From Candidatus Poribacteria bacterium (GTDB lineage Bacteria > Poribacteria > WGA-4E > WGA-3G): a stretch of DNA of 64,000 nucleotides. Numbering within the stretch: position 1 is the first letter of the stretch; every line of letters begins with the position of its first letter. The stretch is taken from positions 1,630 to 65,629 of the forward strand of contig JAGWBU010000003.1 in the NCBI GenBank assembly GCA_021295735.1, in the 5' to 3' direction. The notes under the pieces were generated by a model that was not told where the DNA came from, did not search any database, and saw only the letters and a list, made by a program, of their open reading frames with translations. The position numbers were made by a program, and so were the translations under genes. Positions 1,637 through 21,759 of the stretch are shown piece by piece.

Positions 1637-2428
1637 TCAGACCCATAGAGCGGGTTCACGGTCTTCGGCACGGTGTTCATAGAGCAGTTTGACATCATCA
1701 GGAAACTTATCGAACGTTTCACCGGGAATCTTAGCAGTATTGACACCGAAGAGTTCTAAATTCAACCACCAAGGTGCGTATCTGACAACCACAGCAGTGC
1801 GGCGACCATCACTTGGATTTTCAGCATTTGAATGCCAAATCCGGCTATCCATGATAAGTACACTTCCCGCACTACCGACAGCTTGCATTTCACCCTCAAG
1901 AGGATTGCGATCTCCGATGCCATCCTCTTTGCCTCGCGGATTTCTGAGGTCAATATGTGATTTCGGAACAATCCAAGTGCCACCGTTTTCTGTCGTAAAA
2001 TCGGTGAGCATCCAGAGCGTGGTAATACCGATAACAGCAGTCGGAAAAGGTTGCGTGATATGCCATTTTTGGTTCAAGTCATACGGAAAATCGGAGTGAT
2101 AGGCACGCACCAATTGATAATGTGGAGGTCGGATTTTATACTCTGTTTGAGATATACGCACCTGTGGGCCTAATAATTCACGGATAACTGCAAGGAGTTG
2201 CTCATTCGCCAGATGTTCTGCAAAGCGCGGCATAAAACTAATTACATTGCGCTCCCATCTGCCATTGTCTTTGCTGAATTGACTATAGTCTGCTTCTGAA
2301 GTTTCCACCTCTTCGCGAACTGAATCAACAACATCGGCGGGGATAACATTTTCTAATACACACCAACCTTCTTCACGCATCTGTGTAACATAAGGGTTGA
2401 TAGTTTCTGATAAATTATCTGTAGCCAT
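1637..2428 (-). CDS. Phytanoyl-CoA dioxygenase family protein
   Basis: Predicted Fe(II)/2-oxoglutarate-dependent oxygenase of 263 residues. The facial triad is visible as HSD at 111-113 and a distal His at about 199 in RIWHSNAENPSDGRR; Arg 210 is the probable 2-oxoglutarate anchor. The double-stranded beta-helix core lies between these residues. PhyH-family proteins hydroxylate diverse small molecules, so the substrate is open. It is one of three divergent PhyH genes in the window (also 24927-25778 and 56343-57233), which do not look like recent duplicates. It is transcribed from the same strand as the following SCP2-like gene, about 65 bases away. Confidence 0.9.
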   Translation of the reverse strand: MATDNLSETINPYVTQMREEGWCVLENVIPADVVDSVREEVETSEADYSQFSKDNGRWERNVISFMPRFAEHLANEQLLAVIRELLGPQVRISQTEYKIRPPHYQLVRAYHSDFPYDLNQKWHITQPFPTAVIGITTLWMLTDFTTENGGTWIVPKSHIDLRNPRGKEDGIGDRNPLEGEMQAVGSAGSVLIMDSRIWHSNAENPSDGRRTAVVVRYAPWWLNLELFGVNTAKIPGETFDKFPDDVKLLYEHRAEDREPALWV

Positions 2429-2493
2429 TCTACTACTCCTTTTGAATTCTGGAATTGGAAGGATAATAGAGTCTAATAAAAATTATACGACAA

Positions 2494-2877
2494 TCAGTTA
2501 CGTTCCTTGTTATGACGAATTGCTGCCTTAATGAGTGGGGTGAGACGCATAATTTTGCCTAATGAACCAGCAATACCGATCTCGCGTGTCGTGATCGCTC
2601 CCATGACGTTGAGTTCACCTGTCCAAAATCTGTGTGCCACATCTCCCGTCATCGTCAGTTCTACATCGGGGGTAGTGTCACCACAAGCGTCTCGGGAAAC
2701 GGTGTATTTACCATTCGCTGCGGTTAACGTCATCACACAATCGGGCGTCCTGTAATTAAACTGGACGCTTAAGTTTAGCGATTTTAGCACCTCTTGCGCT
2801 TCTGCTAACGTGGCAATTTCCTCAAACAGTTCGCTAATATAAATATAAAGTTGTTCTGATGTTTCAAATATAGCCAT
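2494..2877 (-). CDS. SCP2 sterol-binding domain protein
   Basis: About 127 residues resembling the SCP-2 sterol/lipid-carrier fold: an N-terminal helix, a beta sheet containing FNYRTPDCVMTLTAANGKYTV, a segment VELTMTGDVAHRFWTGELN, then GITGSLGK-like IAGSLGKIMRLTPL at the C-terminus. Such domains bind hydrophobic ligands and are usually soluble. ATG 2877 gives the natural N-terminus MAIFETSEQ; an in-frame TTG at 2919 would add 14 residues without a convincing ribosome-binding site. It is divergent from the alkyltransferase gene at 2927, with about 50 bases between the two starts. The binding partner is unknown. Confidence 0.75.
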   Translation of the reverse strand: MAIFETSEQLYIYISELFEEIATLAEAQEVLKSLNLSVQFNYRTPDCVMTLTAANGKYTVSRDACGDTTPDVELTMTGDVAHRFWTGELNVMGAITTREIGIAGSLGKIMRLTPLIKAAIRHNKERN

Positions 2878-2926
2878 AGTTTGCGGTATAGCATAACTTA
2901 TAATACATAGGAAGGTCAAATTAAAA

Positions 2927-3520
2927 ATGGATAAGAAACTGTTACGCTATTTTATTCCTGACTTTGAAGAAAATCTGGAACCCTACGATATAGAACTAAT
3001 TTCTAAAGCATTCCAAGATTTTTATGGTACGAATAATCTCCGATATAAATTACCTATTGGCCATATAGACATAGTTCAAACACGTTCCCATATTTCACAT
3101 ATATTTTTTAATGATGATTCCAGGTTCTATGAACCCCCATTCACCCCTCAGACGGAGTTGTTGGGTCGTACTAAAGACTTATTGGATAGATATTTTGATG
3201 GTGAGTCCGTGGATTTCCGAGAGGTACCAGTAAAAATAGAAATGGGAACAGACTTTCAGAATTCGGTTTGGAACACTATTCACCAGATTCCGCACGGTGA
3301 GGTGCGCAGCTACAAATGGATAGCAGAACAGATTGGTAGACCGAAGGCTGTTCGCGCTGTCGGAAATGCCACTGGGAGCAATCCGATTACAATCATAATT
3401 CCGTGTCATCGTGTAATTGGCAGCAACGGTAATTTAGGCGGTTATGGGGGTGGTCTTGAACGAAAACGGCAATTGCTAACGCTTGAAGGCTATCCGGTTG
3501 AGGTGTTAAGTGAAAAATAA
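2927..3520 (+). CDS. ogt: Methylated-DNA--[protein]-cysteine S-methyltransferase
   Basis: A suicide DNA-repair protein that moves the alkyl group from O6-alkylguanine to its own cysteine. The active-site motif PCHRVIG starts at Pro 159, with Cys 160 as acceptor, and is followed by the usual NLGGYGGGLERKRQLL tail. The helix-turn-helix region VRSYKWIAEQIGRPKAVRAV precedes it. At 197 residues it has the normal Ogt/Ada-C plus N-terminal domain length. AGGAAGG at 2909-2915 supports the ATG. Its 3' end overlaps the start of the next gene by 11 bases, so the two are probably translated together, although their functions are unrelated. Confidence 0.92.
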   Translation: MDKKLLRYFIPDFEENLEPYDIELISKAFQDFYGTNNLRYKLPIGHIDIVQTRSHISHIFFNDDSRFYEPPFTPQTELLGRTKDLLDRYFDGESVDFREVPVKIEMGTDFQNSVWNTIHQIPHGEVRSYKWIAEQIGRPKAVRAVGNATGSNPITIIIPCHRVIGSNGNLGGYGGGLERKRQLLTLEGYPVEVLSEK

Positions 3521-4739
3521 GAAGTATAAGGGCAAATCAACTGAGGCTATTCATGCAGGAGAAACGCTGCCGATACTCCCAACAGGCGCACAGGACCATC
3601 ATTCAGAAAAAACCGGAATTCCGTTGCTGCCACCAATTTACCAAAACAGCACTTTTCGTTTTCAAACAGCGGAGGAATGTGCATCAGCATTCATTGATGA
3701 AGATAGCGGTTATATCTACACTCGATGGGGCAATCCTACGCAGAAGGTATTAGAACAGAAACTCTCAACACTTGAGGCAGGTGAAGCCGCATTAGCAACT
3801 GCTTCGGGGATGGGGGCAATTAGTACAGCATTGCTCACCGCCTTAGCGGATGGGGGGCACGTTGTAGCGATGGAAAACCTTTATTCCGCTTCGTACAATC
3901 TGCTGAATGAAGAACTTCCGCGGATGGGGGTTGAAACAACGTTCGTGGATGCTACAGATCCGAACAAAGTCGAAAACGCAATTCGTCCTGACACAAAAGT
4001 TCTCTATCTTGAAAGTCCAACCAACCCTTTACTCAAACTTGTTGACCTCGGAGCTTGTGCCGAGATTGCAAAGGCACACAAGATAACTTCAATCATGGAT
4101 AACACGTTTGCAACGCCTTGCAGCCAACAACCAATTGTGTTTGGCATTGACGTAGTGCTTCACAGTATGACAAAATACCTAAGTGGCAACGGGGCAGTAA
4201 TCGCGGGTGCGATAGTCGGTGAAAAGGATTTCATTGTGCGCGCACAAAAAGGGGCGTTACGAAACTTCGGCTCGGTGATCAGTCCATTTAACGCGTGGCT
4301 AACATTGCTTGGTATACCCACCTTACCACTTCGATTTGCGCGGCATTGTGTGAATGCAGCACATATCGCAGCATTTCTTGAGACGCATCCAGCAGTTACG
4401 TGGGTTCGCTACCCAGGTTTGCCCAGTCATCCACAGCATGACCTCGCCAAACGTCAGATGAATGGATTTGGCGGTATGATAACGATGGAACTCAAAGGTG
4501 GACGTACTGCAGGTGAAAAACTTGTTAACCAACTTCAAATCTGTGCGCTGGCTGTTAGTTTAGGTGATGTACGCACCTTAGTTTGTCATCCTGCGTCAAC
4601 AACACATTTACACGTTCCGATTGAAGTGCGGCAGCGAACCGGTATCACGGATGGTTTGGTTAGGTTCTCAATAGGATTAGAGGATACTGAGGATATTATT
4701 GCTGACCTTGAACAGGCGTTAGAGGGACTTCCTTCTTAA
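3510..4739 (+). CDS. Cys/Met metabolism PLP-dependent enzyme (trans-sulfuration family)
   Basis: A 409-residue fold-type I PLP enzyme of the cystathionine gamma-synthase / methionine gamma-lyase / O-acylhomoserine sulfhydrylase family. The PLP lysine is Lys 222 in HSMTKYLSGNG; YTRWGNPT (about 70-77) and the substrate-binding C-terminal region TLVCHPASTTH are also present. The family cannot be split by eye, so synthase, lyase or sulfhydrylase activity is possible. The GTG start at 3510 overlaps the ogt stop by 11 bases and has GAGGT just upstream. Its end is followed by a repeat-rich intergenic region. Confidence 0.9.
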   Translation: MKNKKYKGKSTEAIHAGETLPILPTGAQDHHSEKTGIPLLPPIYQNSTFRFQTAEECASAFIDEDSGYIYTRWGNPTQKVLEQKLSTLEAGEAALATASGMGAISTALLTALADGGHVVAMENLYSASYNLLNEELPRMGVETTFVDATDPNKVENAIRPDTKVLYLESPTNPLLKLVDLGACAEIAKAHKITSIMDNTFATPCSQQPIVFGIDVVLHSMTKYLSGNGAVIAGAIVGEKDFIVRAQKGALRNFGSVISPFNAWLTLLGIPTLPLRFARHCVNAAHIAAFLETHPAVTWVRYPGLPSHPQHDLAKRQMNGFGGMITMELKGGRTAGEKLVNQLQICALAVSLGDVRTLVCHPASTTHLHVPIEVRQRTGITDGLVRFSIGLEDTEDIIADLEQALEGLPS

Positions 4740-4773
4740 AAAGGCGCGAGTCATCTCAAGTTCTTCGTAGGTT

Positions 4774-4997
4774 GGGTAGAGCGCAGCGAAACCCATAAGT
4801 GTCAATTTAGCAGACAAATTCCGTCACACGCTGTCCGGCGGGGTCTCTGTGCCCGCAGATATTTGGAACATGCCAAGTAAAGGGCGGGCACAGAGACCCG
4901 CCCCTACAATAAAGATGGATTGTTCGTTTGGCAAAATTGCGGAAAACTTGAAATTAATCCTTAAATTGACATCTATGGGTAGAGCGCAGCGAAACCC
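4774..4997 (+). repeat. Dispersed MITE-like repeat element with palindromic core
   Basis: The phrase GGGTAGAGCGCAGCGAAACC occurs at 4774-4793 and again, in the same orientation, at 4977-4996. Just inside lie inverted ends: CCATAAGTGTCAATTTA at 4793-4809 and TAAATTGACATCTATGG at 4962-4978. The core, about 4835-4907, is a foldback whose arms read GGGGTCTCTGTGCCCGC and GCGGGCACAGAGACCCGCC. No coding capacity. Related copies are at 8102-8148, 19859-19996, 21272-21729, 35512-35780 and a half core at 59935-59960. Confidence 0.7.
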
Positions 4998-5060
4998 AAC
5001 AATTAACCTTACCATACATAAATCATTGATCCGCCCCGCATATCATATCTGCATATTTGC

Positions 5061-6308
5061 CTATTTATCCTCGTCCAAAAGCTCCGCCTTTAGCATCCGT
5101 ACATAATTTTCAGTGATATTTCGTGAATCATGTGCAGTATTTTGATGCGGTTCGGAAAAATCAGCGAGCAGTTTTTCGTACGCATCTATCGCTTGTTCCA
5201 TATCCCCAATTTCTTTATAGATTTCCGCTACTTGGTATTGTGCGTTAAGCCGAGAGTCGTAATTATGTGTAGGATCATCTGCGAATTGCTGATACACTTC
5301 AATGGCACGTGCGGTATCCTTGTTGGCGTAAGCTATTTGTGCAATGTAAATTTTCCAGTCAGGAACATTTCTGTTGTTTGGGTACGCAGCAATTGCTTTT
5401 TCAAGTAACTCAATAGCTTCATCATATTTTTCAAGTTTTGCATACGGTTGAGCGATGTAAAAGTTTGCTTCCTGACCAGCATGTGTGTCTGAATAGAGGT
5501 CTATCGACTTTTGATATGCCGCAATCGCCTCATCATATTTTCCTTCTTTATAGTAGGTCTGTGCAATTCCAAAACTGGCGAGAGGTGCTAAGTCTGGGTC
5601 ACCAGAGTCTACTACATTCGTGAATTCAATCCGCGCGTTTTCATAGTCCTGCTTTTCAAAGTATATGTCTCCAGTAGCATATAAAATCTTATAAAGTATT
5701 GGACTACGGCTAAGTTCAAACTTAAGATTATCAAGTTGGGTTAGAGCAAGATTTAAATCGCCTCTGCCTTTGTAACATAATGCTGCAGTAAACTGTGCCT
5801 CTTCTTGAAGCACACTACCGGGGTACGTTGCGATTAACTGATTGAATAGAGCAAGCGCCCTGTCATAATAGGCCGTAAGAGATTCGAGTGTCCTTGTTTT
5901 TTCTAATTCTTCTGCAATCCGATAGGTTGTAATGGCTATAGCGTACATTGAATCATCTGCCCATTCACTGTCTGGATAATCGCGTATTAATCGACGATAC
6001 AGCGCGAATCCCTCCTCATCTGTACGAGGAAGTAAGGCGAGTTGATAGAGCGCATCATCCGCCCATCGACTGTCGGCGTAATTTTCAAAAACTGCCCGGT
6101 ACGCTGCGCGCACTTTTCGCAAGCGGTTTTTATCCGGTTCATCATACGTTACCGGGGGATTATTCATTTCTCGGACTTTAGACCACGCTTTATCGGCATT
6201 TTCGTAGTACTTGGCATAATCATTAAAAGGACTTGTGAAACGTCCGACCCAAAATCCCGCAGCGATCGCAATAACAACGCAGATTTCCACGATTATGAAC
6301 TTTTTCAT
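5061..6308 (-). CDS. Membrane-anchored tetratricopeptide-repeat protein
   Basis: A 415-residue protein with an N-terminal hydrophobic segment (about residues 4-24, FIIVEICVVIAIAAGFWVG) that is either an uncleaved signal anchor or a signal peptide. The rest is a run of TPR units of the YbgF/BamD-like kind, with repeated phrases such as YPDSEWADDSMYAIA, YDEAIAAYQKSIDLY, YDEAIELLEKAIAAYP and MEQAIDAYEKLLADF. TPR arrays scaffold protein complexes; the location is probably the periplasmic or outer face of the cytoplasmic membrane. A good AGGAG lies upstream of the ATG. No partner is evident next to it. Confidence 0.85.
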   Translation of the reverse strand: MKKFIIVEICVVIAIAAGFWVGRFTSPFNDYAKYYENADKAWSKVREMNNPPVTYDEPDKNRLRKVRAAYRAVFENYADSRWADDALYQLALLPRTDEEGFALYRRLIRDYPDSEWADDSMYAIAITTYRIAEELEKTRTLESLTAYYDRALALFNQLIATYPGSVLQEEAQFTAALCYKGRGDLNLALTQLDNLKFELSRSPILYKILYATGDIYFEKQDYENARIEFTNVVDSGDPDLAPLASFGIAQTYYKEGKYDEAIAAYQKSIDLYSDTHAGQEANFYIAQPYAKLEKYDEAIELLEKAIAAYPNNRNVPDWKIYIAQIAYANKDTARAIEVYQQFADDPTHNYDSRLNAQYQVAEIYKEIGDMEQAIDAYEKLLADFSEPHQNTAHDSRNITENYVRMLKAELLDEDK

Positions 6309-8148: not shown

Positions 8149-8168
8149 ACTGTTTGAGGAGAAATCTT

Positions 8169-9185
8169 ATGAAAAAAATCGGTTTTCGTATCTTCGTATT
8201 AGTTATAGCGATTCTATTGGTAACACCACTACTTGCTGAAAATGGCGAGAGTATTCTGGATAAAGTGAAAAACCGAGGGCGATTGATATGTGGGGTGAAC
8301 AAAGAATTACCTGGTTTCGGTTATCTCGGTCAGGATGGGAAATATAAAGGCTTTGACGTAGATTTCGGTCGCGCGATTGCAGCCGCTGTCTTTGGTGACC
8401 CAGATAAAGTTGAGTTCCGCTCATTAAAAGGCGCAGACCGTTTTCCCGCGCTTCAGACAGGTGAAATAGATGTTTTAATCCGAAATACGACTTGGACGTT
8501 GATCCGCGACACAGCAAACGGCGCAGACTTCGCACCCCCTACCTTTTACGATGGACAAGGGTTCATGGTTCGCAAAGACCTCGGTGTAACGGAATTGAAG
8601 GAATTGGATGGCGCAACTATCGGTGTCACATCTGGTAGCACGACCGAGTTGAATCTTGCCGATACAATGCGTGCTTTGGGAATCGAAGTTGAAGCTATCG
8701 TTTTTGAAGAAACCGAAACACTTTACCAAAGTTACGATCATGGACGTTGTGATGCCGTTACAAGCGATAAATCCCAATTGATTTCCAGAAAACAAGCATT
8801 GAAAAATCCCGATGAGCATATTATTCTTGACATTACCATTTCTAAAGAACCCCTTGGACCCGTTACCGTCCATGGCGACAATCAATGGAATGATATTGTG
8901 AGTTGGGTCGTTTATGCTACATTCTTTGCAGAAGAACATGGTATTACCAGTGCTAACGTCAAAGATTTTAAAACAGGGAAAATTGAAATAAAACGTTTCC
9001 TCGGAGAAACTGGAAATATGGGTGAGAAGCTTGGATTACCAAATGACTGGGCACGACAAGTGATTGCTGCTGTCGGTAACTATGGTGAAATCTTTGAACG
9101 CCACCTCACACCTCTCGGTCTCCCACGCGGGGTTAACAAACCTTGGACACAAGGAGGACTGCTCTACGCAATGCCGTTCCGTTAG
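8169..9185 (+). CDS. aapJ: Amino-acid ABC transporter substrate-binding protein (AapJ-like)
   Basis: Periplasmic solute-binding protein of 338 residues for polar amino acids. It has a signal peptide (MKKIGFRIFVLVIAILLVTPLLA), then the family-3 binding-protein core starting ILDKVKNRGRLICGVNKELPGFG, with GFDVDFGRAIAAAVFGD and DVLIRNTTWTLIRDT typical of general L-amino-acid binders. ATG 8169 was chosen because AGGAGA ends 6 bases upstream; an in-frame TTG at 8154 overlaps that site. The matching permeases and ATPase are at 18662-22521, separated from it by the restriction-modification island, although aap genes normally sit together. Confidence 0.88.
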   Translation: MKKIGFRIFVLVIAILLVTPLLAENGESILDKVKNRGRLICGVNKELPGFGYLGQDGKYKGFDVDFGRAIAAAVFGDPDKVEFRSLKGADRFPALQTGEIDVLIRNTTWTLIRDTANGADFAPPTFYDGQGFMVRKDLGVTELKELDGATIGVTSGSTTELNLADTMRALGIEVEAIVFEETETLYQSYDHGRCDAVTSDKSQLISRKQALKNPDEHIILDITISKEPLGPVTVHGDNQWNDIVSWVVYATFFAEEHGITSANVKDFKTGKIEIKRFLGETGNMGEKLGLPNDWARQVIAAVGNYGEIFERHLTPLGLPRGVNKPWTQGGLLYAMPFR

Positions 9186-9241: not shown

Positions 9242-10969
9242 ATGGCGAATTATCAAGAACTTGCACAACTCGTTTGGAATGTGGCAGATGATGTACTGCG
9301 AAACTTGTTTAAACAGCACGAATACGGTGACATCACCCTCCCATTTCTGGTACTGCGTCGGTTGGATTGCTTATTAGATGAGGATGGACGAAAAGAGGAA
9401 GCCATCAAAACTTACAATCTGTTTAAAGATCAAGTACCCGAAGAGTCCTTACCACCGATTATCACAGATAAGATAAAGACCAATTTCTACAATATCTCTA
9501 AATACGATCTTTCTCGATTGAAAGACGACCCAAACAATATTCGCATCAACTTTGATAACTACATCGGTGGATTTAGTCAGAACGTGCGAGACATCATTGA
9601 AAACTTCAACCTTGCTCGGTTTATTGAGCGGTTGCACAAGAACAACCGACTGTTCATCTTCTGTGATAAGTTCACCGAAGTTGATTTGCACCCCGATAAG
9701 GTAGACAACCGCACAATGGGGTTGGTCTTTGAGGAACTACTCCGTAAATTCTCGGAGATGTCCAACGAAACCAGCGGGGAACACTACACACCGCGCGATG
9801 TCGTGCAATTATTGGTTTCCTTGCTGTTTGCAGAACACAGTCAAGAACTGCGCGGCGAGGGAATTGTCCGTAGTATCTTCGACCCGTGTTGCGGAACAGG
9901 TGGCATGTTGACAATTGGGAAGAAATATTTCCACGAGCAGATCAATCCAAACGCTGACATTCGGCTGTTAGGACAGGAACTGAACGCGCAGACCTACGCA
10001 ATCTGCAAGTCGGATATGCTCATAATCGGAGAGGATCCCGATAATATCCAACACGGTTCCAGTCTCTCTAATGACCAATTTCAAGGGGAGCGATTCGATT
10101 ATATGATAACAAATCCACCCTTTGGTGTCAGTTGGAAATCTGATGCAGACGCGGTTGAAGCAGATGCAGATACCGCTAACGGTAGATTCTCAGTGGGTAC
10201 TCCTCGCTCCTCTGATGGTGCGTTGCTGTTCCTGCAACACATGCTGTCCAAGATGGAGGACAACGGAAGTCGCGTTGGCATCGTCTTTAACGGGTCACCA
10301 CTCTTCACAGGAGATGCGGGCAGCGGTGAGAGCGATATCCGAAAATGGATTATTGAAAACGATTGGCTGGAGTGTATTATCGCGCTGCCTGAAAAGTTGT
10401 TCTTCAATACCAGTATCGCCACCTACATTTGGATTTTAACAAATAAAAAATCGGAAGTGCGCCAAGGTAATATCCAACTGATCAATGCCGTTGACTTCCA
10501 CAACGATATGAAAAGGAATCTTGGACAAAAGAATGCTCTTATTTCCGATACCCATATCCACCAAATAGCAGAACTCTACACCAACTTTGAAGAGACTGAA
10601 CATTGCAAAATCTATCCAAACGAGTTTTTCGGTTATACAAAAGTAACAGTTGAGAAACCCCTCATTGACGAGGAGACAGGGGATGTCGTCACAGACAAAC
10701 AAGGCAATCCGAAACCAGATACCAAGCTGCGAGACTCTGAACGCGTGCCACTCACAGAGGACATTGAGGATTACTACCAACGAGAAGTAAAACCGCATGT
10801 GCCTGATAGTTGGATGGACAGGAAGAAGGATAAGGTAGGCTACGAAATCAACTTCAATCGATATTTCTACCAGTACACGCCGCTACGCTCACTGAAAGAA
10901 ATTGCTGATGAAATACTGACTCTTGAACGCAAAAGTGAAGGCTTGCTGAATGAGGTGTTAGAGTTATAA
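9242..10969 (+). CDS. hsdM: Type I restriction-modification system methyltransferase subunit HsdM
   Basis: N6-adenine DNA methyltransferase subunit of 575 residues. An N-terminal helical HsdM_N domain (QLVWNVADDVLRNLFKQHEYG) is followed by the methylase core with SAM motif DPCCGTGG at about 214-221 and the catalytic motif NPPFG at 291-295. It acts with HsdS for methylation and with HsdS plus HsdR for cleavage. Its last codons, KSEGLLNEVLEL, recur three more times downstream at cassette boundaries. The ribosome-binding site is weak. hsdS follows only after about 3.4 kb of inserted accessory genes. Confidence 0.93.
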   Translation: MANYQELAQLVWNVADDVLRNLFKQHEYGDITLPFLVLRRLDCLLDEDGRKEEAIKTYNLFKDQVPEESLPPIITDKIKTNFYNISKYDLSRLKDDPNNIRINFDNYIGGFSQNVRDIIENFNLARFIERLHKNNRLFIFCDKFTEVDLHPDKVDNRTMGLVFEELLRKFSEMSNETSGEHYTPRDVVQLLVSLLFAEHSQELRGEGIVRSIFDPCCGTGGMLTIGKKYFHEQINPNADIRLLGQELNAQTYAICKSDMLIIGEDPDNIQHGSSLSNDQFQGERFDYMITNPPFGVSWKSDADAVEADADTANGRFSVGTPRSSDGALLFLQHMLSKMEDNGSRVGIVFNGSPLFTGDAGSGESDIRKWIIENDWLECIIALPEKLFFNTSIATYIWILTNKKSEVRQGNIQLINAVDFHNDMKRNLGQKNALISDTHIHQIAELYTNFEETEHCKIYPNEFFGYTKVTVEKPLIDEETGDVVTDKQGNPKPDTKLRDSERVPLTEDIEDYYQREVKPHVPDSWMDRKKDKVGYEINFNRYFYQYTPLRSLKEIADEILTLERKSEGLLNEVLEL

Positions 10970-10992
10970 GAGGGAAAAGTTATGATTACCGA
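10922..10992 (+). repeat. hsdM-tail repeat, copy A
   Basis: Seventy-one bases covering the hsdM 3' end, the short intergenic gap and the first 11 bases of the next gene. Copy B at 12710-12780 has exactly the same length and aligns without gaps. The hsdM part is also present in copies C (13526-13566) and D (14291-14330). Confidence 0.85.
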
Positions 10993-12208
10993 ACTCAGAG
11001 CGCGAAATTTCAAATCATGGCAAGATACAGGTCCGCTACAGTTCGCCCCATTAACTGGACTTTTTGGTGCGAATAGCTCCGGCAAAACCAGTATCTTACA
11101 GGTACTGTTAATGCTGAAGCAGACTGTAAAAGATAATGATTCCAAGTTACCACTAAACTTTGGTAAGAGCAATTTTGATAATGTTATTCACCTTCACGAT
11201 AAGAATCTTAGTTTAGGTTTTTCGGTGTCGTGGAAACTACCTAAGCAAATAAAAATTCAAGGGGACTTAATCAATTCCCTTTCTTTTTCAACCGCCATTC
11301 TTGAAAAATATGGAAGTGTGATGGTGGAACGTTTTTGTTATTCAACAAATCGTAACGACTTTGAAATAGGTTGGACAGAACGAGGATATAGGTACTTACC
11401 TAATGTTATAGATGAAAAAGCAGACACATACAAATGTTATGGAGTTGATAGTCCAGTAGGACCTTTAGAAAAATTTAAGCCTCTTAGCGAAGAATTTGAG
11501 GGCCTATTTTCTCGAATCATCTATCTCGGTCCACTCCGCGAGTATCCTCAACACAGTTATACTTGGGAGGGTGACCATCCACAAGACATTGGGATGTACG
11601 GTGAAAAGATGATATCTGCCCTGCTTTCGAGCCGGATTCTACGCCACCCAATTGAAGTTCAGATTTTGAAATGGTTACGGAAATTAGACCTGATCTACTC
11701 CTATGATGTTCCTCCTGTCACCGAAGAGGGTAAAAATTATGAATGTCTTGTCAAACAATATAAAGACGGACCAGAAGTCCCACTGACTGATGTTGGTTTT
11801 GGTGTTTCTCAAGTACTGCCTGTGCTTACACTTTGCTATTATGCGCCTGAAGATTCAATCCTCATCCTTGAACAACCGGAGGCACATCTACATCCGAAAG
11901 TCCAATCAGACTTAGCAGATGTTCTCATTGATGTTGTGAAAAATCGAAACGTACAGATTATCCTTGAAAGTCATAGCGAACATCTGCTACTACGTTTGAT
12001 GCGTCGGATTGCTGAAGAAGATATTTCAGTAGATCAAACAGCACTCTATTTCTGCCAGATAAACGAAGGGACCTCCGAAATTGAACGACTCAAGGTTGAC
12101 GAATATGGTAACATCAGCAATTGGCCTCAAAATTTCTTTGGCGATGAGATGGGTGACTTGGTAGAAAAAACGAAAGCCGAAATGCGCCGGCGGAAAGAAA
12201 ACAAATAA
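10982..12208 (+). CDS. AAA-family ATPase with DUF3696-type C-terminus
   Basis: A 408-residue ABC/SMC-like ATPase of the AAA15 group. Walker A is GANSSGKTS at 29-37, an ABC-signature-like DVGFGVSQVLP is at about 270-280, and Walker B is ILILEQPEAHLHP at about 293-305, followed by a conserved His-rich ESHSEHLLLR. The C-terminal ISNWPQNFFGDEMGDL resembles DUF3696. ATPases of this class work with a nuclease partner in several anti-phage systems (OLD, Septu, PARIS). Here the partner is probably the PIN-like protein whose ATG shares one base with this stop codon (TAATG). Found between hsdM and hsdS, so this is defence-island cargo. Confidence 0.85.
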   Translation: MITELRARNFKSWQDTGPLQFAPLTGLFGANSSGKTSILQVLLMLKQTVKDNDSKLPLNFGKSNFDNVIHLHDKNLSLGFSVSWKLPKQIKIQGDLINSLSFSTAILEKYGSVMVERFCYSTNRNDFEIGWTERGYRYLPNVIDEKADTYKCYGVDSPVGPLEKFKPLSEEFEGLFSRIIYLGPLREYPQHSYTWEGDHPQDIGMYGEKMISALLSSRILRHPIEVQILKWLRKLDLIYSYDVPPVTEEGKNYECLVKQYKDGPEVPLTDVGFGVSQVLPVLTLCYYAPEDSILILEQPEAHLHPKVQSDLADVLIDVVKNRNVQIILESHSEHLLLRLMRRIAEEDISVDQTALYFCQINEGTSEIERLKVDEYGNISNWPQNFFGDEMGDLVEKTKAEMRRRKENK

Positions 12209-12714
12209 TGGCAGTGATTGTAGATACAAATGTAGCTTTAGTCGCCAGTGGCCAGTCAGAACAGGCATCTGAGGATTGTGTCGCAGTTTGTGCTGAGAAG
12301 CTTGGACAAATTAACAATGGTGAAGTGAAATTAGTTTTGGATAATCAGCGGCGAATCATTGATGAATACCGGGGACATCTAAATCCAGATGGCCAACCCA
12401 GTATCGGTGATGTATTTCTCAAATGGGTAGAGATGAATTGGGCAAATCCTGAAAGGTGTGATTTAGTTTCAATTACGCCTATTGGTGGTTTAGAGAATGA
12501 GTTTGAGGAGTTTCCAGACGATCCAGCATTGGATGACTTTGATCCAGATGACCGGAAGTTTATAGCGGTTGCATGTGCCCATCCAGAAGAACCGCCTATC
12601 CTGCAAGCGGTAGATAGTCAGTGGTTGGATTTCCGCAACGCATTCCGTCGAAACGGTGTGACAGTGGAGTTTATTTGCGAAGATGATATTCAACGATTGT
12701 ATCAAAGCACTTGA
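12208..12714 (+). CDS. PIN-like domain protein, probable nuclease partner of the ATPase
   Basis: A 168-residue protein with the acidic pattern of PIN-domain RNases: MAVIVDTNVAL (Asp 6), IIDEYRGH (Asp 52 and Glu 53), DPDDRKFIAVA (Asp 115) and AVDSQW (Asp 136). PIN proteins cleave RNA or occasionally DNA as toxins or effectors. It is translationally coupled to the ATPase (TAATG junction), so the two very likely form one functional unit. The stop codon lies inside hsdM-tail copy B. The family is inferred from the spacing of acidic residues; a named family was not recognised. Confidence 0.7.
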   Translation: MAVIVDTNVALVASGQSEQASEDCVAVCAEKLGQINNGEVKLVLDNQRRIIDEYRGHLNPDGQPSIGDVFLKWVEMNWANPERCDLVSITPIGGLENEFEEFPDDPALDDFDPDDRKFIAVACAHPEEPPILQAVDSQWLDFRNAFRRNGVTVEFICEDDIQRLYQST

Positions 12715-12780
12715 ACGCAAAAGTGAAGGTTTGCTGAATGAGGTTTTGGCTTTATAAAAGGGATAAGTTATGATTACCGA
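12710..12780 (+). repeat. hsdM-tail repeat, copy B
   Basis: Same 71-base length as copy A. It still reads RKSEGLLNEVLAL and a TAA stop in the hsdM frame, and ends with an orphan start ATGATTACCGA that matches the first codons of the ATPase gene and then hits a stop (MITDHYLF). Differences from copy A are mostly synonymous, which suggests it derives from a different hsdM allele. Confidence 0.8.
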
Positions 12781-12898
12781 CCACTATCTATTCTGAGCTC
12801 ACGTTAAATTCCGCTGTCCCTTTACCATAAAACTTTGAATCCCGCAGCTTAATCATATATAATTAACATTAACATAATCCTTACTACAGAGGTCGCAG

Positions 12899-13228
12899 AT
12901 GAAAAAACCAAAACTTGTCGTTGGACACCTCATGAATGACCAATTAAGTGTCCAATCTGTTGCAACCTCAAAGTCCTTTGATTGGCTCAAATGGTTAGAG
13001 GCAGAAGAACTTGTTGAATTTTTTAATGAATTGTTTAAGCTGCTAACACGAATCTCAGAAGGCAAAAAAGACGCTCAAACACTTTCAATTTTTCTCTCCG
13101 AATGGCGTGAAACCGCATTGATTAATTCTGAGCCAGATGTCTTAGCAGATATTGTTGAAGCACAACAAGAATTAGCCGCAGGTGGCGGCAAGGAGTGGAC
13201 ACAGATCAAAAAGGAAATTGGACTGTGA
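12899..13228 (+). CDS. Putative antitoxin of a RelE-type pair
   Basis: A 109-residue protein with no recognised family. Helical, with an acidic middle (LKWLEAEELVEFFNELFKLL) and a C-terminal part SEPDVLADIVEAQQELAAGGGKEWTQIKKEIGL. The role is inferred from context: its TGA overlaps the GTG of the RelE/ParE-like gene (GTGA), the typical antitoxin-toxin coupling, and both sit between two hsdM-tail repeats as a separate cassette. GAGGT precedes the ATG. No clear DNA-binding fold can be named. Confidence 0.6.
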   Translation: MKKPKLVVGHLMNDQLSVQSVATSKSFDWLKWLEAEELVEFFNELFKLLTRISEGKKDAQTLSIFLSEWRETALINSEPDVLADIVEAQQELAAGGGKEWTQIKKEIGL

Positions 13229-13506
13229 ATTCCCTACCCTATACACTTGCACCACTTCCAAGAAAGGTGGAAAATTTTATCAGAAGGTTGGACCAGGAAA
13301 CACAAGCGCGAATTAGTACTGCTTTTGAGTACATCCTTAGTTCTCCGTTTCGACATGAAAATCCAACAACTATTACACCATTACATGGAAAGAAGAAAGG
13401 GCTTTACCGTTATCGGATAGGGAATCTCCGGTTCATTTATCAGGTTGACAGAGAAGAACGCATAATCCATATTGTACAAATTGACAACCGTGGTGATATT
13501 TATTAA
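13225..13506 (+). CDS. RelE/ParE-type toxin
   Basis: A 93-residue protein with the RelE/ParE superfamily pattern: N-terminal helices with VENFIRRLDQETQARISTAF, then the strands HGKKKGLYRYRIGNLRFIYQVDREERIIHIVQIDNRGDIY. Members cleave mRNA on the ribosome or poison gyrase; which applies here cannot be told. GTG 13225 was chosen because it gives the classic N-terminus and overlaps the upstream stop (GTGA). An in-frame ATG at 13195 would add ten residues inside the antitoxin gene. Typical length for the family. Confidence 0.82.
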   Translation: MNSLPYTLAPLPRKVENFIRRLDQETQARISTAFEYILSSPFRHENPTTITPLHGKKKGLYRYRIGNLRFIYQVDREERIIHIVQIDNRGDIY

Positions 13507-13525
13507 GAATGCGCTATTCAGACAG

Positions 13526-13566
13526 AAAAGTGAAGGTTTGCTGAATGAGGTGTTAGAATTATGAGG
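13526..13566 (+). repeat. hsdM-tail repeat, copy C
   Basis: Reads KSEGLLNEVLEL with a TGA stop that overlaps an ATG (GAATTATGAGG). The bases after it, ATGAGGCGTTGCTGA, match the hsdS start ATGAGACGTTATCCTGA and then end in a stop. This is a scar of an hsdM/hsdS junction, not of the hsdM/ATPase junction seen in copies A and B. Confidence 0.75.
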
Positions 13567-13618
13567 CGTTGCTGATTAACCAGCACTACGCAACTTATTT
13601 CGTTAGGAGAAAGTCACT

Positions 13619-13888
13619 ATGCCATATACCAATTATACCGCCAAAGAAATTGCATCACGAGGTGAAACAATTTATAAACGGGAAATACGAGACAGAGTTG
13701 AGCCAAAGCACAAAGGCAAGTTTTTGGTTATTGACATAGAAACGGGTGAATACGAAATCAACACAGACGATTTAATCGCCACGAAACGGCTCCTTGCTAA
13801 GCACCCTAATGCTGTCGTTTACGGCTTACAAATTGGGTTTTCAACTGCTTACCGAATCGGTGGACACTTTTCGGTCAAAACGGAATGA
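13619..13888 (+). CDS. Conserved small hypothetical protein, partner of clan AA protease
   Basis: An 89-residue protein of unknown function. Conserved phrases are IASRGETIYKREIRDRVE, HKGKFLVIDIETGEYEI and ALLAKHP-like RLLAKHPNAVVYGLQIG. A paralogue with the same layout is at 52951-53235. In other bacteria, as I recall, this family often precedes a retropepsin-like protease, and here its stop overlaps the protease start (ATGA). The pair has the organisation of a toxin-antitoxin-like cassette, but no activity is known. A clear AGGAG lies upstream. It is bracketed by hsdM-tail copies C and D. Confidence 0.7.
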   Translation: MPYTNYTAKEIASRGETIYKREIRDRVEPKHKGKFLVIDIETGEYEINTDDLIATKRLLAKHPNAVVYGLQIGFSTAYRIGGHFSVKTE

Positions 13889-14261
13889 TAAATGGAAAAA
13901 TTACCACTCATCGAGAAGCTATCATCGGATTAGAGGTTATTGGTTCGAATCAGAAAAGAGAGAAGGTTGAGGCGGTCATTGACACAGGTTTCAATGGCTA
14001 TCTAACACTACCGAATAATTTAATCAATTCCCTCAATCTTCAGCAAGCTGGCAGTCGGCGCGTTACGCTTGGTGATGGAAACATAGTCGTGTTAGAGATG
14101 TATTTTGCAAAAGTCTTATGGCATGGGCAGGAACGGAGATACTTGCTCTACAAGCAGACGGTGGAACATTGATTGGTATGTCACTGCTGTATGGAAGTCG
14201 TTTGGTGTTAGAGGTTATAGACAACGGTAATGTGACTATTGACTCTCTGATGCCCGTATGA
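13885..14261 (+). pseudogene. Clan AA (retropepsin-like) aspartic protease, frameshifted
   Basis: The first frame (13885-14172) encodes the protease N-terminus with the catalytic triplet DTG at residues 33-35 in AVIDTGFNGYLTLP, then runs into an unnatural tail after LWHGQERR. From about 14145 the adjacent frame continues the family consensus, ending with LQADGGTLIGMSLLYGSRL and a stop at 14259-14261. One missing base between about 14128 and 14150 explains this. The intact product would be about 125 residues, the usual length. It starts within the stop of the preceding gene (ATGA). Either a pseudogene or a sequencing error. Confidence 0.75.
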
Positions 14262-14290
14262 TCTTTTGGGTACCGACCTATTGTTGAGGA

Positions 14291-14330
14291 AAAAGTGAAG
14301 AATTGCTGAATGAGGTATTGGAATTATGAG
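14291..14330 (+). repeat. hsdM-tail repeat, copy D, at the hsdS start
   Basis: Reads KSEELLNEVLEL followed by a TGA that overlaps the ATG of hsdS (GAATTATGAG). This looks like the original hsdM/hsdS junction, left next to hsdS after cassettes were inserted upstream. Confidence 0.78.
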
Positions 14331-15633
14331 ACGTTATCCTGAATATAAAGACAGCAGCGTGGAATGGATTGGGGAAATACCAGCGCATTGGGAAATCAAA
14401 AGACTTAAGCACGGTGCGAAGATACTACCAAGTAATGTTGACAAACACATCTATCCAGATGAGATCCAAGTCAGATTATGCAATTATACAGATGTTTATT
14501 ACAACGACTATATTACAGTTGATACCGTTTTGGAAAAGGGTAGTTGTAAAGAACGTGAATTTACGAAATTTGCCTTGAGGAAAGATGATGTTATAATTAC
14601 CAAAGATTCTGAGACCCCAGATGACATTGGTGTTCCAACATTCGTCAAAAACAATTTAGACAATGTTGTCTGTGGTTATCATTTAACAATGATTAGAACC
14701 TACGCTTGTTGTGGCGAGTTTGTTTTTAGATTTATTCAATCCGATAGAACAAGAAGATATTTTGAGTTGGAGTCAAATGGAATTACCAGATACGGCTTAG
14801 GAAAACCATCAATTGAAAATCTACTTTTACCGATACCTACTGATTCTGAACAAACCCAAATCGCCAACTTCCTTGGCCGCAAAACCGAACAGATTGACGA
14901 ACTCATCCGCATCAAAGAAAGACGGATAGAACTGCTACAGGAACAACGCACCGCACTGATAAATCAGGCAGTGACAAAGGGACTTGACCCAAATGTGGAG
15001 ATGAAACCGTCGGGCGTGGTCTTAAGAACGAAGCATGTTGGTTCAAGCAACCCATCCAAAAACAATATCAAGACGGCTTGTCTTAAGGATGAACTTGTAG
15101 TCTTCCTTCCAATGGAACGTGTTCATACTGATGGGACAATCGACCAAGAATTAAGGCTACCATATTCTCAACTGAAAAATGGCTACACTTACTTTGAGGA
15201 AGGTGATATTCTAATAGCAAAAGTAACTCCTTGTTTTGAAAATGGAAAGATTGTCCACATAAAGAATTTGACAACCTCAGTTGGATTTGGCTCAACCGAG
15301 TTTATTGTCATTCGCCCTGATTTGCAAAAGGTCTTTCCACCTTTTTTGCATTATATTCTCTACAATGCTCCACTTCGTAGCATTGGTAAACATTTTATGA
15401 CGAGTGCAATAGGTCTTAAACGAGTGCCAACTGAATTTGTTGAGGATTTTCGGATTCCTATACCAACTTATCAAGAACAACAGCAAATCGCAAACTTTCT
15501 CAGCCACAAAACCAAGCAGATTGACGAACTGATAGCAGCAGAGCAGCGAAAAATTGAACTCCTCAAAGAATACCGCCAATCCCTTATTTCCGAAGCAGTG
15601 ACCGGCAAAATAGATGTCCGAAACGAGATTTAG
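14326..15633 (+). CDS. hsdS: Type I restriction-modification specificity subunit HsdS
   Basis: The DNA-recognition subunit, 435 residues, with two target-recognition domains separated by helical spacers. The first half opens with KDSSVEWIGEIPAHWEIKRLK and ends in the conserved helix EQTQIANFLGRKTEQIDELI (about 183-202). The second half ends with EQQQIANFLSHKTKQIDELI and a repeat of the IELLKEYR motif. Each half contacts half of a bipartite DNA target that cannot be predicted here. The ATG overlaps an hsdM-like TGA of repeat copy D. hsdR begins 3 bases after its stop. Confidence 0.93.
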   Translation: MRRYPEYKDSSVEWIGEIPAHWEIKRLKHGAKILPSNVDKHIYPDEIQVRLCNYTDVYYNDYITVDTVLEKGSCKEREFTKFALRKDDVIITKDSETPDDIGVPTFVKNNLDNVVCGYHLTMIRTYACCGEFVFRFIQSDRTRRYFELESNGITRYGLGKPSIENLLLPIPTDSEQTQIANFLGRKTEQIDELIRIKERRIELLQEQRTALINQAVTKGLDPNVEMKPSGVVLRTKHVGSSNPSKNNIKTACLKDELVVFLPMERVHTDGTIDQELRLPYSQLKNGYTYFEEGDILIAKVTPCFENGKIVHIKNLTTSVGFGSTEFIVIRPDLQKVFPPFLHYILYNAPLRSIGKHFMTSAIGLKRVPTEFVEDFRIPIPTYQEQQQIANFLSHKTKQIDELIAAEQRKIELLKEYRQSLISEAVTGKIDVRNEI

Positions 15634-18661: not shown

Positions 18662-19834
18662 ATGGCACAGATACCATCTCACACCCCCTTCTGGCGAGAT
18701 ATTCGCTTTATACGTGTACTATTACAAATACTTTTTCTGCTTGGTGTTTTGCTGTTAGCCGGGATTCTCTACACAAATATGCAAAGGGGTTTGAGAAATC
18801 TAAACTTAGAACTCAACCTCGATTTTCTCAGTAACGAAGCAGGATTCTACATCTCCGAAGGTATTGGATACGATCCATCAAACGCATACCAGAAAGCATT
18901 TTGGGTTGGCATACTGAACACAATAAAGGTAAGCTTGATAGGAATCGTATGTGCGACAGTATTAGGACTCTTTTTCGGTATCGCACGGTTATCAAGCAAC
19001 TGGTTAATTCGCAACATCGCAACTGCTTATGTTGAAGTTTTCCGTAATATTCCACTCCTACTCCAGATTCTGTTTTGGTATACTGCAGTCATAATCGGTC
19101 AGCTTCCTCAAGTCCACGATAGCATATCACTTCCGGGGTCAATATACATTAACAATCGCGGTATATATTTACCTGCACTTGAACCAACACCAGGTCTGAA
19201 AATTTGGCTCATTTTTATCTGTATTGGCATTCTCATAGGAGGGGTTCTATTTGTGTTGCAGTGGCGGAAACTACAACGGTTGGACCGGCCCGGTTTTCCA
19301 GCAAAATGGGCACTCCCTGTTTTTATTATAGTCGCAATCTGTGGATGGTTTCTCACACCGGAGAATCCTTTTAAATTAAACTTACCAGAATTGGGACGTT
19401 TTAACTATCAAGGTGGATTCCGTTTTTCTTCAGAGTTTTCTGCACTTCTCATCGGACTCTCAGTGTATACAGGCGCATATATTGCAGAAATCGTCCGAAG
19501 TGGGCTACAAGCAGTCGCGAAGGGACAGCGGGAAGCCGCGGGAGCAGTCGGCTTAAATCAACGGCAGACACTTAGACTCATCGTTCTTCCACAAGCAATC
19601 CCCATCATTGTGCCACCACTTACGAGCCAGTACCTAAACCTCGCGAAAAACTCGAGTTTAGCTGTGGCAATCGGTTTTCCAGACGTGTTTAGCATCGGAA
19701 ATACGATGATGTCTCATACAGGACAATCAATCCCAGTTTTCGCTATGATTATGGTGAGTTATCTGATCATGAGTCTGACAACTTCCGCTGCGATGAATTG
19801 GTATAACAAATGGATTAACAGGATGAAGAAATAG
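18662..19834 (+). CDS. aapQ: Amino-acid ABC transporter permease (AapQ-like)
   Basis: Inner-membrane permease of 390 residues. An N-terminal membrane segment (about 13-40) is followed by NLNLELNLDFLSNEAGF, typical of AapQ, then the HisM-type core with several membrane helices. The ATPase-coupling EAA loop is REAAGAVGLNQRQTLRLIVLPQA. The long insertion between the first helices, with a hydrophobic stretch near IWLIFICIGILIGGVLFVL, is normal for this subfamily. It works with AapM, AapP and the binding protein AapJ. The binding-protein gene is 9.5 kb upstream, beyond the restriction-modification island. Confidence 0.88.
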   Translation: MAQIPSHTPFWRDIRFIRVLLQILFLLGVLLLAGILYTNMQRGLRNLNLELNLDFLSNEAGFYISEGIGYDPSNAYQKAFWVGILNTIKVSLIGIVCATVLGLFFGIARLSSNWLIRNIATAYVEVFRNIPLLLQILFWYTAVIIGQLPQVHDSISLPGSIYINNRGIYLPALEPTPGLKIWLIFICIGILIGGVLFVLQWRKLQRLDRPGFPAKWALPVFIIVAICGWFLTPENPFKLNLPELGRFNYQGGFRFSSEFSALLIGLSVYTGAYIAEIVRSGLQAVAKGQREAAGAVGLNQRQTLRLIVLPQAIPIIVPPLTSQYLNLAKNSSLAVAIGFPDVFSIGNTMMSHTGQSIPVFAMIMVSYLIMSLTTSAAMNWYNKWINRMKK

Positions 19835-19858
19835 TACTATGTCCATCAATATTGTAGT

Positions 19859-19996
19859 TTGGGTAGAGCGCAGCGAAACCCATAGGCGTCAATTTAGTGG
19901 GTGCATGCCCGTCACACATTGTAGGGCGGGGTCTCTGTGCCCCGCCGATATTTGGCACATCCCAAGCAACGGGCGGGCACAGAGACCCGCCCCTAC
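19859..19996 (+). repeat. Dispersed repeat with long foldback
   Basis: Starts with GGGTAGAGCGCAGCGAAACC and CCATAGGCGTCAATTTA, like the element at 4774. The core at 19921-19996 is a foldback: GGGCGGGGTCTCTGTGCCCC on the left and GGGCGGGCACAGAGACCCGC on the right around a loop of about 24 bases. In RNA this would make a very stable hairpin within the aapQ-aapM gap. No right-hand inverted end was seen. Confidence 0.65.
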
Positions 19997-20124
19997 AATA
20001 GGAGTGAGGGGTGGATAAGATAGAACGAAATCTAACAAAATCAGATTTATGAGATACGTTCTAGTTTGCTATCAAACTATGTATAAAAATTTCAACAACA
20101 TCACATCGTGGAAAATTAAAAACT

Positions 20125-21288
20125 ATGGAACAAATTAAACCGCCAACCCTCACAAAAGGCCCAGTAGGATGGCTTAAAGAAAACTTATTCAACACATGGT
20201 ATAACGTCCTGCTAACTGGCATTGCACTTGTGTTGCTATTTTTAGGTTTTAAGGGTTTTCTAACGTGGGCATTCACAGAAGCGAAGTGGAACGTAATCCC
20301 GGCAAACCTACAACTTTTTGCTGTAGGGTCTTATCCAAGGGATCAGATATGGCGCGTCTGGTCGGTGATTTATGTTTTAGCCGTGCTGATAGGGTTAAGT
20401 GCTGGAATCTGGGGCAGTTTAGTCCGTCGTTTTGCCTTTATACTTGGTGGCGTTTTTTTCTTATGTGCCGTTATCCCATTTGAACTGTCAACGCGCGGAT
20501 TGTTTTTGGGTGCCGTTGCAGTAATAGGAGGCGCTCTCTTTCTGGGACGAGGCAGGAAAAACTTGCGTCGATGGATCTTGGCAGGATGGCTTCTCTCCTT
20601 CCCTGTAATAATGATGCTACTACGTGGGTTCGGTGAAAACGCTGTGCTGACAAGCAATTGGGGTGGACTCCTCCTTACACTCATTCTTGCAGTTGTAGGA
20701 ATTGTCGTCTCCTTCCCACTGGGCGTGTTTTTAGCACTCTGCAGACAAAGTAAACTGCCTGCTATCCGATGGATTTCAACAACTTATATTGAGACAGTTC
20801 GCGGTGTGCCGTTGATAACTATCTTATTCATGGGAAGTATATTAATTCCCATCTTTATTCCGGATTTTAATATAAACCAAGTTTTACGGATGATGATAGG
20901 AATCACCTTGTTCTCCGCAGCATACATGGCTGAAAACGTCCGTGGCGGACTTCAGGCAATCCCCACCGGTCAATATGAGGCTGCGCAAGCTGTCGGACTC
21001 AATTATGTCCAGACCATGCTGTTTATCGTCTTACCACAAGCACTCCGATCCGTCATTCCAGCAATTGTTGGACAATTTATCGCGCTTTTTAAGGATACTT
21101 CCTTAGTCGCTATCATCGGACTTGTGGATCTGTTAGGTGTCGCGAAAAGTGTCATCGCAGACCCCAATTGGCTCGGGCTTCAAGCAGAAGTATATCTGTT
21201 CGCAGCAATTATCTATTTTGTCTTCAGTTATACAATGTCCTATTTCAGCCAAGAAGTTGAAACTACGCTTGGGGTTGGACAAAATTAA
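20125..21288 (+). CDS. aapM: Amino-acid ABC transporter permease (AapM-like)
   Basis: Second permease subunit, 387 residues. N-terminal WLKENLFNTWYNVLLTGIAL is characteristic of AapM. Hydrophobic segments follow at about 30-48, 78-95, 103-118 and 150-170, then the HisM core with the coupling loop YEAAQAVGLNYVQTMLFIVLPQA. It forms a heterodimer with AapQ. It is separated from aapQ by about 290 bases of repeat and from aapP by a repeat element that duplicates its last 18 bases (GVGQN plus stop). Its own expression may therefore depend on a local promoter. Confidence 0.88.
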   Translation: MEQIKPPTLTKGPVGWLKENLFNTWYNVLLTGIALVLLFLGFKGFLTWAFTEAKWNVIPANLQLFAVGSYPRDQIWRVWSVIYVLAVLIGLSAGIWGSLVRRFAFILGGVFFLCAVIPFELSTRGLFLGAVAVIGGALFLGRGRKNLRRWILAGWLLSFPVIMMLLRGFGENAVLTSNWGGLLLTLILAVVGIVVSFPLGVFLALCRQSKLPAIRWISTTYIETVRGVPLITILFMGSILIPIFIPDFNINQVLRMMIGITLFSAAYMAENVRGGLQAIPTGQYEAAQAVGLNYVQTMLFIVLPQALRSVIPAIVGQFIALFKDTSLVAIIGLVDLLGVAKSVIADPNWLGLQAEVYLFAAIIYFVFSYTMSYFSQEVETTLGVGQN

Positions 21289-21729
21289 CCTATAAGCGTC
21301 AATTTAATGCCTGATTTTCTTGTGGGAGGGCTTTCTAAGCCCGATTTATTACCCAAAGGTAGGCGCGTTTTGTCCACGCGCTGAGAACTCTGAATTCTGC
21401 TGAAAATTACATCATTTGAGTCATAATTATTGGAAAAACCGTGAAAATTGCGTAGCGCAATTTATTGCGCCTCTTTCTCTTTTCAGAACCAAGGATTACA
21501 CGGATTAGAGGATTGTGATTGATTAGGTTTCTTTGTAGCGGCCAATTTTAGTTTGCGCATACACAATCCAGCACAAACTAAAAGTTTATGCTACAGAGGA
21601 AACATCTGATGAAAAATAATCCTGGAAATCCCGTAATCCTGATAATCCTGGTTCAGAACAATCCGAGATTCAGACAAGAAAACGGATGCATCTTCTTAAA
21701 TTGACACTTATGGGTTGGACAAAATTAAC
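21272..21729 (+). repeat. Insertion-like repeat flanked by 18-base direct repeats
   Basis: GGGTTGGACAAAATTAAC occurs at 21272-21289, as the end of aapM, and again at 21712-21729. Just inside are the inverted ends CTATAAGCGTCAATTTAA at 21290-21307 and TTAAATTGACACTTATGG at 21696-21713. The 422-base interior has no gene. The structure resembles a non-autonomous element with an unusually long target duplication, splitting aapM from aapP. Confidence 0.65.
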
Positions 21730-21759
21730 ACTTTCAAATAAAGTTAAGGAACGGACACA

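Follow-up and report, generated by a model that had tools for sequence, protein, structure and literature searches.

A type I restriction-modification (RM) operon, with homologues of hsdM, hsdS and hsdR together (Pfam and PADLOC), lies in a 64,000-nucleotide (nt) stretch of contig JAGWBU010000003.1 of a Candidatus Poribacteria bacterium (hereafter the window), and accessory genes stand between its hsdM and its hsdS, bordered by copies of the hsdM 3′ end (the tail). From a comparison of this operon with other hsd loci, which are cited below by L numbers, we consider it probable that the hsdM-hsdS junction is an insertion hotspot that grows in two steps: a founding insertion accompanied by a long target duplication of variable length, and subsequent exchange of modules through the duplicated tails.

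The window contains four tail copies, A to D, with T at 10931, 12719, 13526 and 14291, where T is the first base of AAAAGTGAAGG in each copy and the origin of all tail coordinates. A repeat search of the window returned a single family, with copies starting at 10922, 12710, 13517 and 14282. The 71-nt tail, used as a query against the 5.07-Mb host genome, matched these four sites (E values of 5e-31, 1e-21, 3e-10 and 1e-6) and no further site with E<0.5; chance is therefore excluded. The translation KSE-[GE]-LLNEVL-x-L-stop is kept in all four copies, and A and B are 90% identical across 71 nt without gaps. On these points the initial annotation, which described four copies with a common reading frame and a gapless A/B match, was accurate. 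It also had both A and B carrying the start of the ATPase gene, which is true of A, but B carries only a relic of its first 11 nt (ATGATTACCGA, 12770-12780) with no ATPase after it. Similarly, C and D were both said to overlap an hsdS-like start codon; D does overlap the start of hsdS, whereas C is followed by the first 10 nt of hsdS (ATGAGGCGTT, 13561-13570) and then by unrelated sequence. Because C and D are alike over about 47 nt (T-2 to T+45, 5 mismatches), they represent the left and right borders of a single insertion, that of the clan AA protease module. Tail D and the hsdS start are 94% identical over 105 bp to L009, a locus of the same genus with the same flanks and no insertion between hsdM and hsdS.

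The closest relatives of this HsdM all come from metagenome-assembled genomes (MAGs) of Poribacteria and are 75-90% identical to it. A 31-nt tail pattern, with 3 mismatches allowed, was found in 36 of 85 Poribacteria genomes, and 14 of them have at least two copies on one contig; the reversed pattern, used as a control, had zero matches in the same 85 genomes. In a comparison set of about 45 hsd loci, oriented on hsdM and mapped for genes and tails, the hsdM-hsdS gap ranges from 0 to 8.6 kb, and 29 internal tails were mapped in 24 gaps. Empty sites, in which hsdM overlaps hsdS, are L009, L161 and L032. The flanks are common within genera, and loci at the same chromosomal place differ in gap content, so the hsd locus is stable and the content of the gap is variable. 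Outside Poribacteria, about 50 loci of the same HsdM family yielded no convincing tail repeats, although an insertion was recognisable in only a few of the loci from outside the phylum. A separate observation concerns L167 (3058-3639), an hsdM pseudogene of 193 amino acids (aa) with an internal deletion, whose two ends, the tail among them, are preserved; the contig also has an intact hsdM about 12 kb away.

The internal tails were classed by their upstream (U) and downstream (D) sequences. The U1 junction, at which the 3′ end of HEC-03A runs into the tail, occurs 15 times and is joined to ten different downstream modules; in L013, L015, L151, L154, L160 and L168, HEC-03 is reduced to a short U1 scar. 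For 22 of 30 internal tails, the sequence immediately behind the tail (the head) is found directly after a real hsdM in another genome. Breakpoints of homology between loci fall near internal tails 47 times, compared with 13.2 +- 3.9 at random positions (0/2000). Individual events can also be read. The hsdM genes of L016 and L017 are 96% identical; next in L016 comes a stretch of about 970 bp that carries a CAAX-protease gene and is bounded by a tail copy on either side, and the homology picks up again inside the second tail. L162 carries the same CAAX-protease cassette, ending at the same tail position, and the second tail of L162, together with the head behind it, is 95% identical to the corresponding stretch at the hsdM end of L012. 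In the window, the unit at 12707-13506 is the one directly behind hsdM in L148, and from this comparison of sequences the HEC-03 module appears to be the later arrival at the hsdM end, after the toxin-antitoxin (TA) unit. The initial annotation had proposed that recombination recurs at the hsdM tail and that accessory modules stand between its remnants, and had suggested looking for the same arrangement in related genomes; the breakpoint enrichment and the U1 junction uphold the proposal, and tails stand at cassette borders in 24 loci. As a further observation, a palindromic repeat, GTCTGAATCGCGGATT ... AATCCGCGATTCAGAC, occurs at several cassette ends (in heads at L013:15096, L151:4810 and L154:396; upstream at L018:15284, L019:13070 and L148:4676), in some loci close to a PDDEXK_3 (GxxExxY-like) gene.

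The duplications differ in length. The one around the clan AA module (T-2 to T+45) is about 47 nt, that of the TA module is about 65 nt (about T-3 to T+62; left copy in window B and L148, right copy in L019), and that in L024 is 110 nt, which gives a range of ~45-110 nt in the focal HsdM family. The 5′ ends of the tail remnants vary as well (T+0, -3/-4, -10/-12, -40, about -53 and -76), and these differing ends and junctions argue against a fixed site-specific crossover. The sequence at which HEC-03A meets the tail, GCACTTGA, is present both at the natural end of HEC-03A, as in the unfused gene of L027, and in hsdM (junction compared in 15 loci); HEC-03A is unfused to a tail in L025, L027 and L030. 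In L027, an hsdS-start remnant stands right after HEC-03A (13598-13635) and a decayed hsdM end stands before the real hsdS, and the presence of remnants at both places indicates that both sides of the junction were duplicated around PD-Lambda-4.

With regard to where exchange falls, fine windows along the tail reveal no linkage between hsdM and head up to T+15 and linkage from T+15 to T+31 (p=0.001); the crossovers therefore seem to lie within the tail's first half or immediately ahead of it. An internal tail resembles those hsdM tails that elsewhere precede its own downstream module more than it resembles the remaining hsdM tails (p=0.005), but on average the hsdM of its own locus is an equally close match (5.3 versus 5.9 differences over 31 nt). 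Since the module-linked difference is confined to the second half of the tail, from T+15 onward, many internal tails look like crossover chimeras and not like whole foreign alleles, as far as their sequences tell. The earlier suggestion that the copies are tails of different hsdM alleles is thus weakly supported: it agrees with the module-linked similarity but not with the equal closeness to the local hsdM. The accompanying idea of a docking site largely stands, except that no fixed, sequence-specific site is involved: the breakpoints vary, and unrelated HsdM tails behave alike.

We propose that foreign DNA would first insert in a way that duplicates, on both sides, the end of hsdM and the beginning of the next gene, which overlap at ATGA in empty loci; one duplicate would end hsdM and the other would start the next gene, and both genes would remain intact. 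Given this overlap, only insertions that duplicate it would leave both genes working and hence survive. The leftover tails would then serve as short direct repeats, within which crossovers by ordinary recombination, requiring no dedicated recombinase, could bring in, swap or remove modules. Exchange would occur mostly next to hsdM, and older modules would be pushed toward hsdS together with a displaced hsdM end, the inserted modules presumably being expressed from the hsd operon.

Several points weigh against this two-step account. The 3′ body of hsdM is not co-inherited with the module (loci sharing a head versus others, p 0.4-0.8). A double crossover with a linear donor, in which hsdM 3′ sequence travels with the module, was rejected because it predicts such co-inheritance, and both crossovers would consequently have to fall in the tail, a very short stretch in which ordinary homologous recombination works inefficiently. 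The segment T+0 to T+15 is highly conserved, and the crossover point is therefore poorly resolved. Microhomology was examined at one junction only, and the polarity is based on few pairs of loci. By blastn, a second tail is detectable in 16 of the 25 focal gaps with an insertion and undetectable in the other 9. Nearly all the data come from MAGs, yet the single-contig assemblies G035:C1, G083:C1 and G082:C1 show the same pattern.

If the tail were an attachment (att) site for a recombinase supplied in trans, with cassettes moving as circles as in integrons, one would expect what is seen in part: fixed borders between tail and module with shuffled modules, a crossover zone within about 15 nt, co-orientation with hsdM of 92 of the 98 cassette open reading frames (ORFs) of at least 100 aa, and an hsdM body that is not co-inherited. 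However, we found no integrase or resolvase (tyrosine or serine recombinase) and no PF00589 match near hsd in ten genomes, no tyrosine integrase on the contig of the window, and no tail in the viral contigs of IMG/VR. The 5′ ends of the duplications lie up to 76 nt apart from one cassette to another, and the same behaviour is seen in unrelated HsdM families, whose tail sequences are different. We therefore consider such a site-specific system improbable. The broader notion that the hsdM 3′ end is a dedicated recombination site of defence-cassette shuffling, an integron analogue in RM operons across Poribacteria that works without an integrase or with a recombinase in trans and takes up modules beside hsdM, also strikes us as unlikely. 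Ordinary homologous recombination between whole hsd loci, with crossovers only in the hsdM body and in hsdS or hsdR and the tails as passive hitchhikers, would fit the constant chromosomal place within genera and the exchange of cassettes between genera. It was already disfavoured and has little probability in our judgement, since breakpoints are enriched at the internal tails themselves and the linkage to the module disappears inside the tail, the hsdM body showing none.

Selection might instead have kept the tails as translation signals for the downstream gene, a GAGGT Shine-Dalgarno sequence lying inside hsdM, with their origin incidental. The tail does supply GAGGT and an overlapping start codon where the site is empty, and it does so ahead of hsdS in window D, L019, L027 and L030; however, most internal tails are followed by non-coding heads and not by a start codon, and the internal tails decay (10 of 29 differ from KSEGLLNEVL by more than 2 aa, compared with 1 of 39 genuine tails), which makes this explanation quite improbable. 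That the local tail was copied by tandem duplication or slippage, or that the copies are an artefact of assembly, is extremely improbable, even though the tails are short direct repeats: they are separated by non-repeat modules of 0.7-4 kb, they match tails and heads of other genomes, single-contig genomes are alike, and the comparisons of L016, L017 and L162 and of L012 and L162 rule it out.

The pattern is not confined to the focal HsdM. Among 39 loci of other HsdM families in Poribacteria, 5 have copies of the hsdM end before hsdS: L175 (two copies, 167 and 126 nt), L194 (187 nt), L199 (75 nt), L204 (98 nt) and L198 (40 nt). Their tail sequences form two groups (L175/L199/L204 and L194/L198), both distinct from the focal family, and a single att sequence cannot account for three groups with different tails. 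In L199, a type II methylase and an endonuclease lie between hsdM and its remnant. L175 carries a 1461-aa protein (1778-6160) beside a second hsdM family, without a PADLOC match, followed by the hsdM-end copies. Outside Poribacteria, 30 loci of other HsdM families gave no clear case and three weak or unrelated matches, insertions being recognisable by the hsdS panel in few of these loci. In L223 (Bacterium UASB270), a dispersed repeat family, present in more than 10 copies nearby and unrelated to cassettes, overlaps the end of hsdM.

Features of the hsd operon in the window (all on the + strand)
Feature	Position	Strand	Basis or remark
hsdM, type I DNA methyltransferase subunit, 575 aa	9242..10969	+	Pfam N6_Mtase 2.6e-64, HsdM_N 2.5e-20; PADLOC MTase_I
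Tail A, genuine hsdM 3′ end then ATPase start	10922..10992	+	reference copy, repeat family D1
HEC-03B-like ATPase, 408 aa	10982..12208	+	PADLOC HEC-03B 2.6e-110; Pfam AAA_15, AAA_21, DUF3696
HEC-03A-like protein, 168 aa	12208..12714	+	PADLOC HEC-03A 1.6e-32; 3′ end fused to hsdM tail at shared GCACTTGA
Tail B and 11-nt ATPase-start relic ATGATTACCGA	12707..12780	+	repeat comparison; unit directly behind hsdM in L148
Putative antitoxin, 109 aa	12899..13228	+	ORF; also in L018, L148; no family match
RelE/ParE-superfamily toxin, 93 aa	13225..13506	+	Pfam ParE_toxin 1.6e-07
Tail C and 10-nt hsdS-start relic ATGAGGCGTT	13526..13570	+	left flank of clan AA insertion
Small protein, 89 aa	13619..13888	+	ORF; recurs in L022, L025, L026
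Clan AA (retropepsin-like) aspartic protease	13885..14172	+	NCBIfam TIGR03698, 4.4e-13, below cut-off; shorter than L022 homologue
Tail D overlapping hsdS start	14289..14335	+	right flank of clan AA insertion; equals hsdM/hsdS junction of empty site L009
hsdS, specificity subunit, 435 aa	14326..15633	+	Pfam Methylase_S; PADLOC Specificity_I
hsdR, restriction subunit, 997 aa	15637..18630	+	Pfam HSDR_N, SWI2_SNF2, ResIII

The initial annotation had read the modules of the window as ATPase/PIN-like, antitoxin/RelE and small protein/retropepsin-like protease. The first is indeed a two-gene pair, now identified through PADLOC as HEC-03B and HEC-03A, and with both components present it represents the candidate defence system HEC-03, located here in a type I RM operon and not in an Hma locus. 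In the TA-like pair, the toxin has a ParE_toxin match, and the adjoining gene, a putative antitoxin, matches no family. The protease was correctly recognised as retropepsin-like; its gene looks frame-shifted relative to the 128-aa homologue of L022, so it may be decaying or mis-assembled. The hsd locus parts a family 3 solute-binding protein gene (8154-9185) from three ABC transporter genes, two for permeases and one for an ATPase (18662-22521), as if it had been inserted into an amino-acid transporter operon, and both flanks are common to L009. The HsdS halves of L012, L019, L162 and L154 match opposite halves of the window HsdS at about 80% identity, and in L012 and L162 the halves are in swapped order, which resembles the domain movement reported for Helicobacter HsdS in the passage concerned (PMC3077401).

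Across the loci, the cassettes include Argonaute systems (a long AlbA-Piwi protein, 1722 bits, and Aga_REase with its partner), matches to bSEFIR, PD-Lambda-4, PDC-S31 and PDC-S11, proteins with PIN, PDDEXK_3 and Gp49 domains, and genes other than defence genes (CAAX protease, F5/8 type C and insertion sequence genes). Identity reaches 92% for certain cassettes in loci whose hsdM genes are 74% identical, which shows horizontal exchange. An 839-aa cassette protein found in five loci (L029:14889-17408; also L018, L031, L159 and L168) has no Pfam, PADLOC or NCBIfam match and no relative in the PDB by sequence, and is a candidate new defence protein. In the hsdS-hsdR gaps, duplication of the hsdS tail amounts to 9-12 nt only, not above shuffled controls. 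Genes inserted between hsdS and hsdR (L016, L017, L018, L019, L020, L022, L160 and L162) end in ACGAGRTKTAG just before hsdR, like the hsdS end.

In sponge-associated Poribacteria, extra anti-phage and toxin genes have thus repeatedly been inserted within an RM operon. The embedding of defence systems in one another is common and its route mostly unexplained, and here its footprints can still be read, in many related genomes and for no fewer than three HsdM families. The rule suggested by these footprints is that insertions into tight operons survive if the gene overlap is duplicated, the duplication then becoming a landing strip for further modules. How defence islands grow where no transposase or integrase is at work thereby becomes directly testable, and tail remnants can be used to find defence candidates, such as the 839-aa and 1461-aa cassette proteins. 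A second defence system within a host defence locus is also seen in DarTG2, which lies between hsdS and hsdR of a type I RM operon where a recombination hotspot has been suggested (PMC12255303), in TgvAB, whose defence genes are embedded in a type I RM operon (PMC11411939), and in the HEC genes of Hma loci. Unlike DarTG2, the insertions described here lie mainly between hsdM and hsdS, and the embedding footprint, the shuffling of modules and the duplicated gene end do not figure in the cited passages of these two accounts.

The arrays resemble integron cassettes in being co-oriented, in having a short repeat between modules and in that new modules seemingly enter at one end. However, the ten genomes have no intI near hsd, the repeat is a protein-coding 3′ end, and the breakpoints are not constant. 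Integrative elements at gene 3′ ends (attL/attR) differ by their integrase, none being found near the locus, and by a constant att core. In homology-facilitated illegitimate recombination, a homologous crossover on one side is combined with a microhomology join on the other. This process could explain a founding junction such as that between HEC-03A and the tail, although the co-transfer of flanking hsdM sequence that it predicts was not seen. The closest parallel in form is insertion with a long target duplication, in which RM genes are the inserted DNA in Helicobacter (Nobusato et al., 2000; in PMC1643837, PMC3031569). As far as those passages describe it, in both cases the insert stands between direct copies of the target, long and variable in length, and there is often a link to RM genes; an insertion-free orthologous allele (L009, L161 and L032) and long variable flanking copies are also found here. 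In contrast, the modules of the window are HEC-03, TA and a clan AA protease, and only L199 carries a type II methyltransferase and restriction endonuclease in the insert. The founding insertion therefore works like the long-target-duplication mechanism but is not a classical case. Compared with the mechanism in those passages, the RM operon is here the target, hit repeatedly at the hsdM/hsdS overlap, and arrays arise as the duplications serve again as points of exchange.

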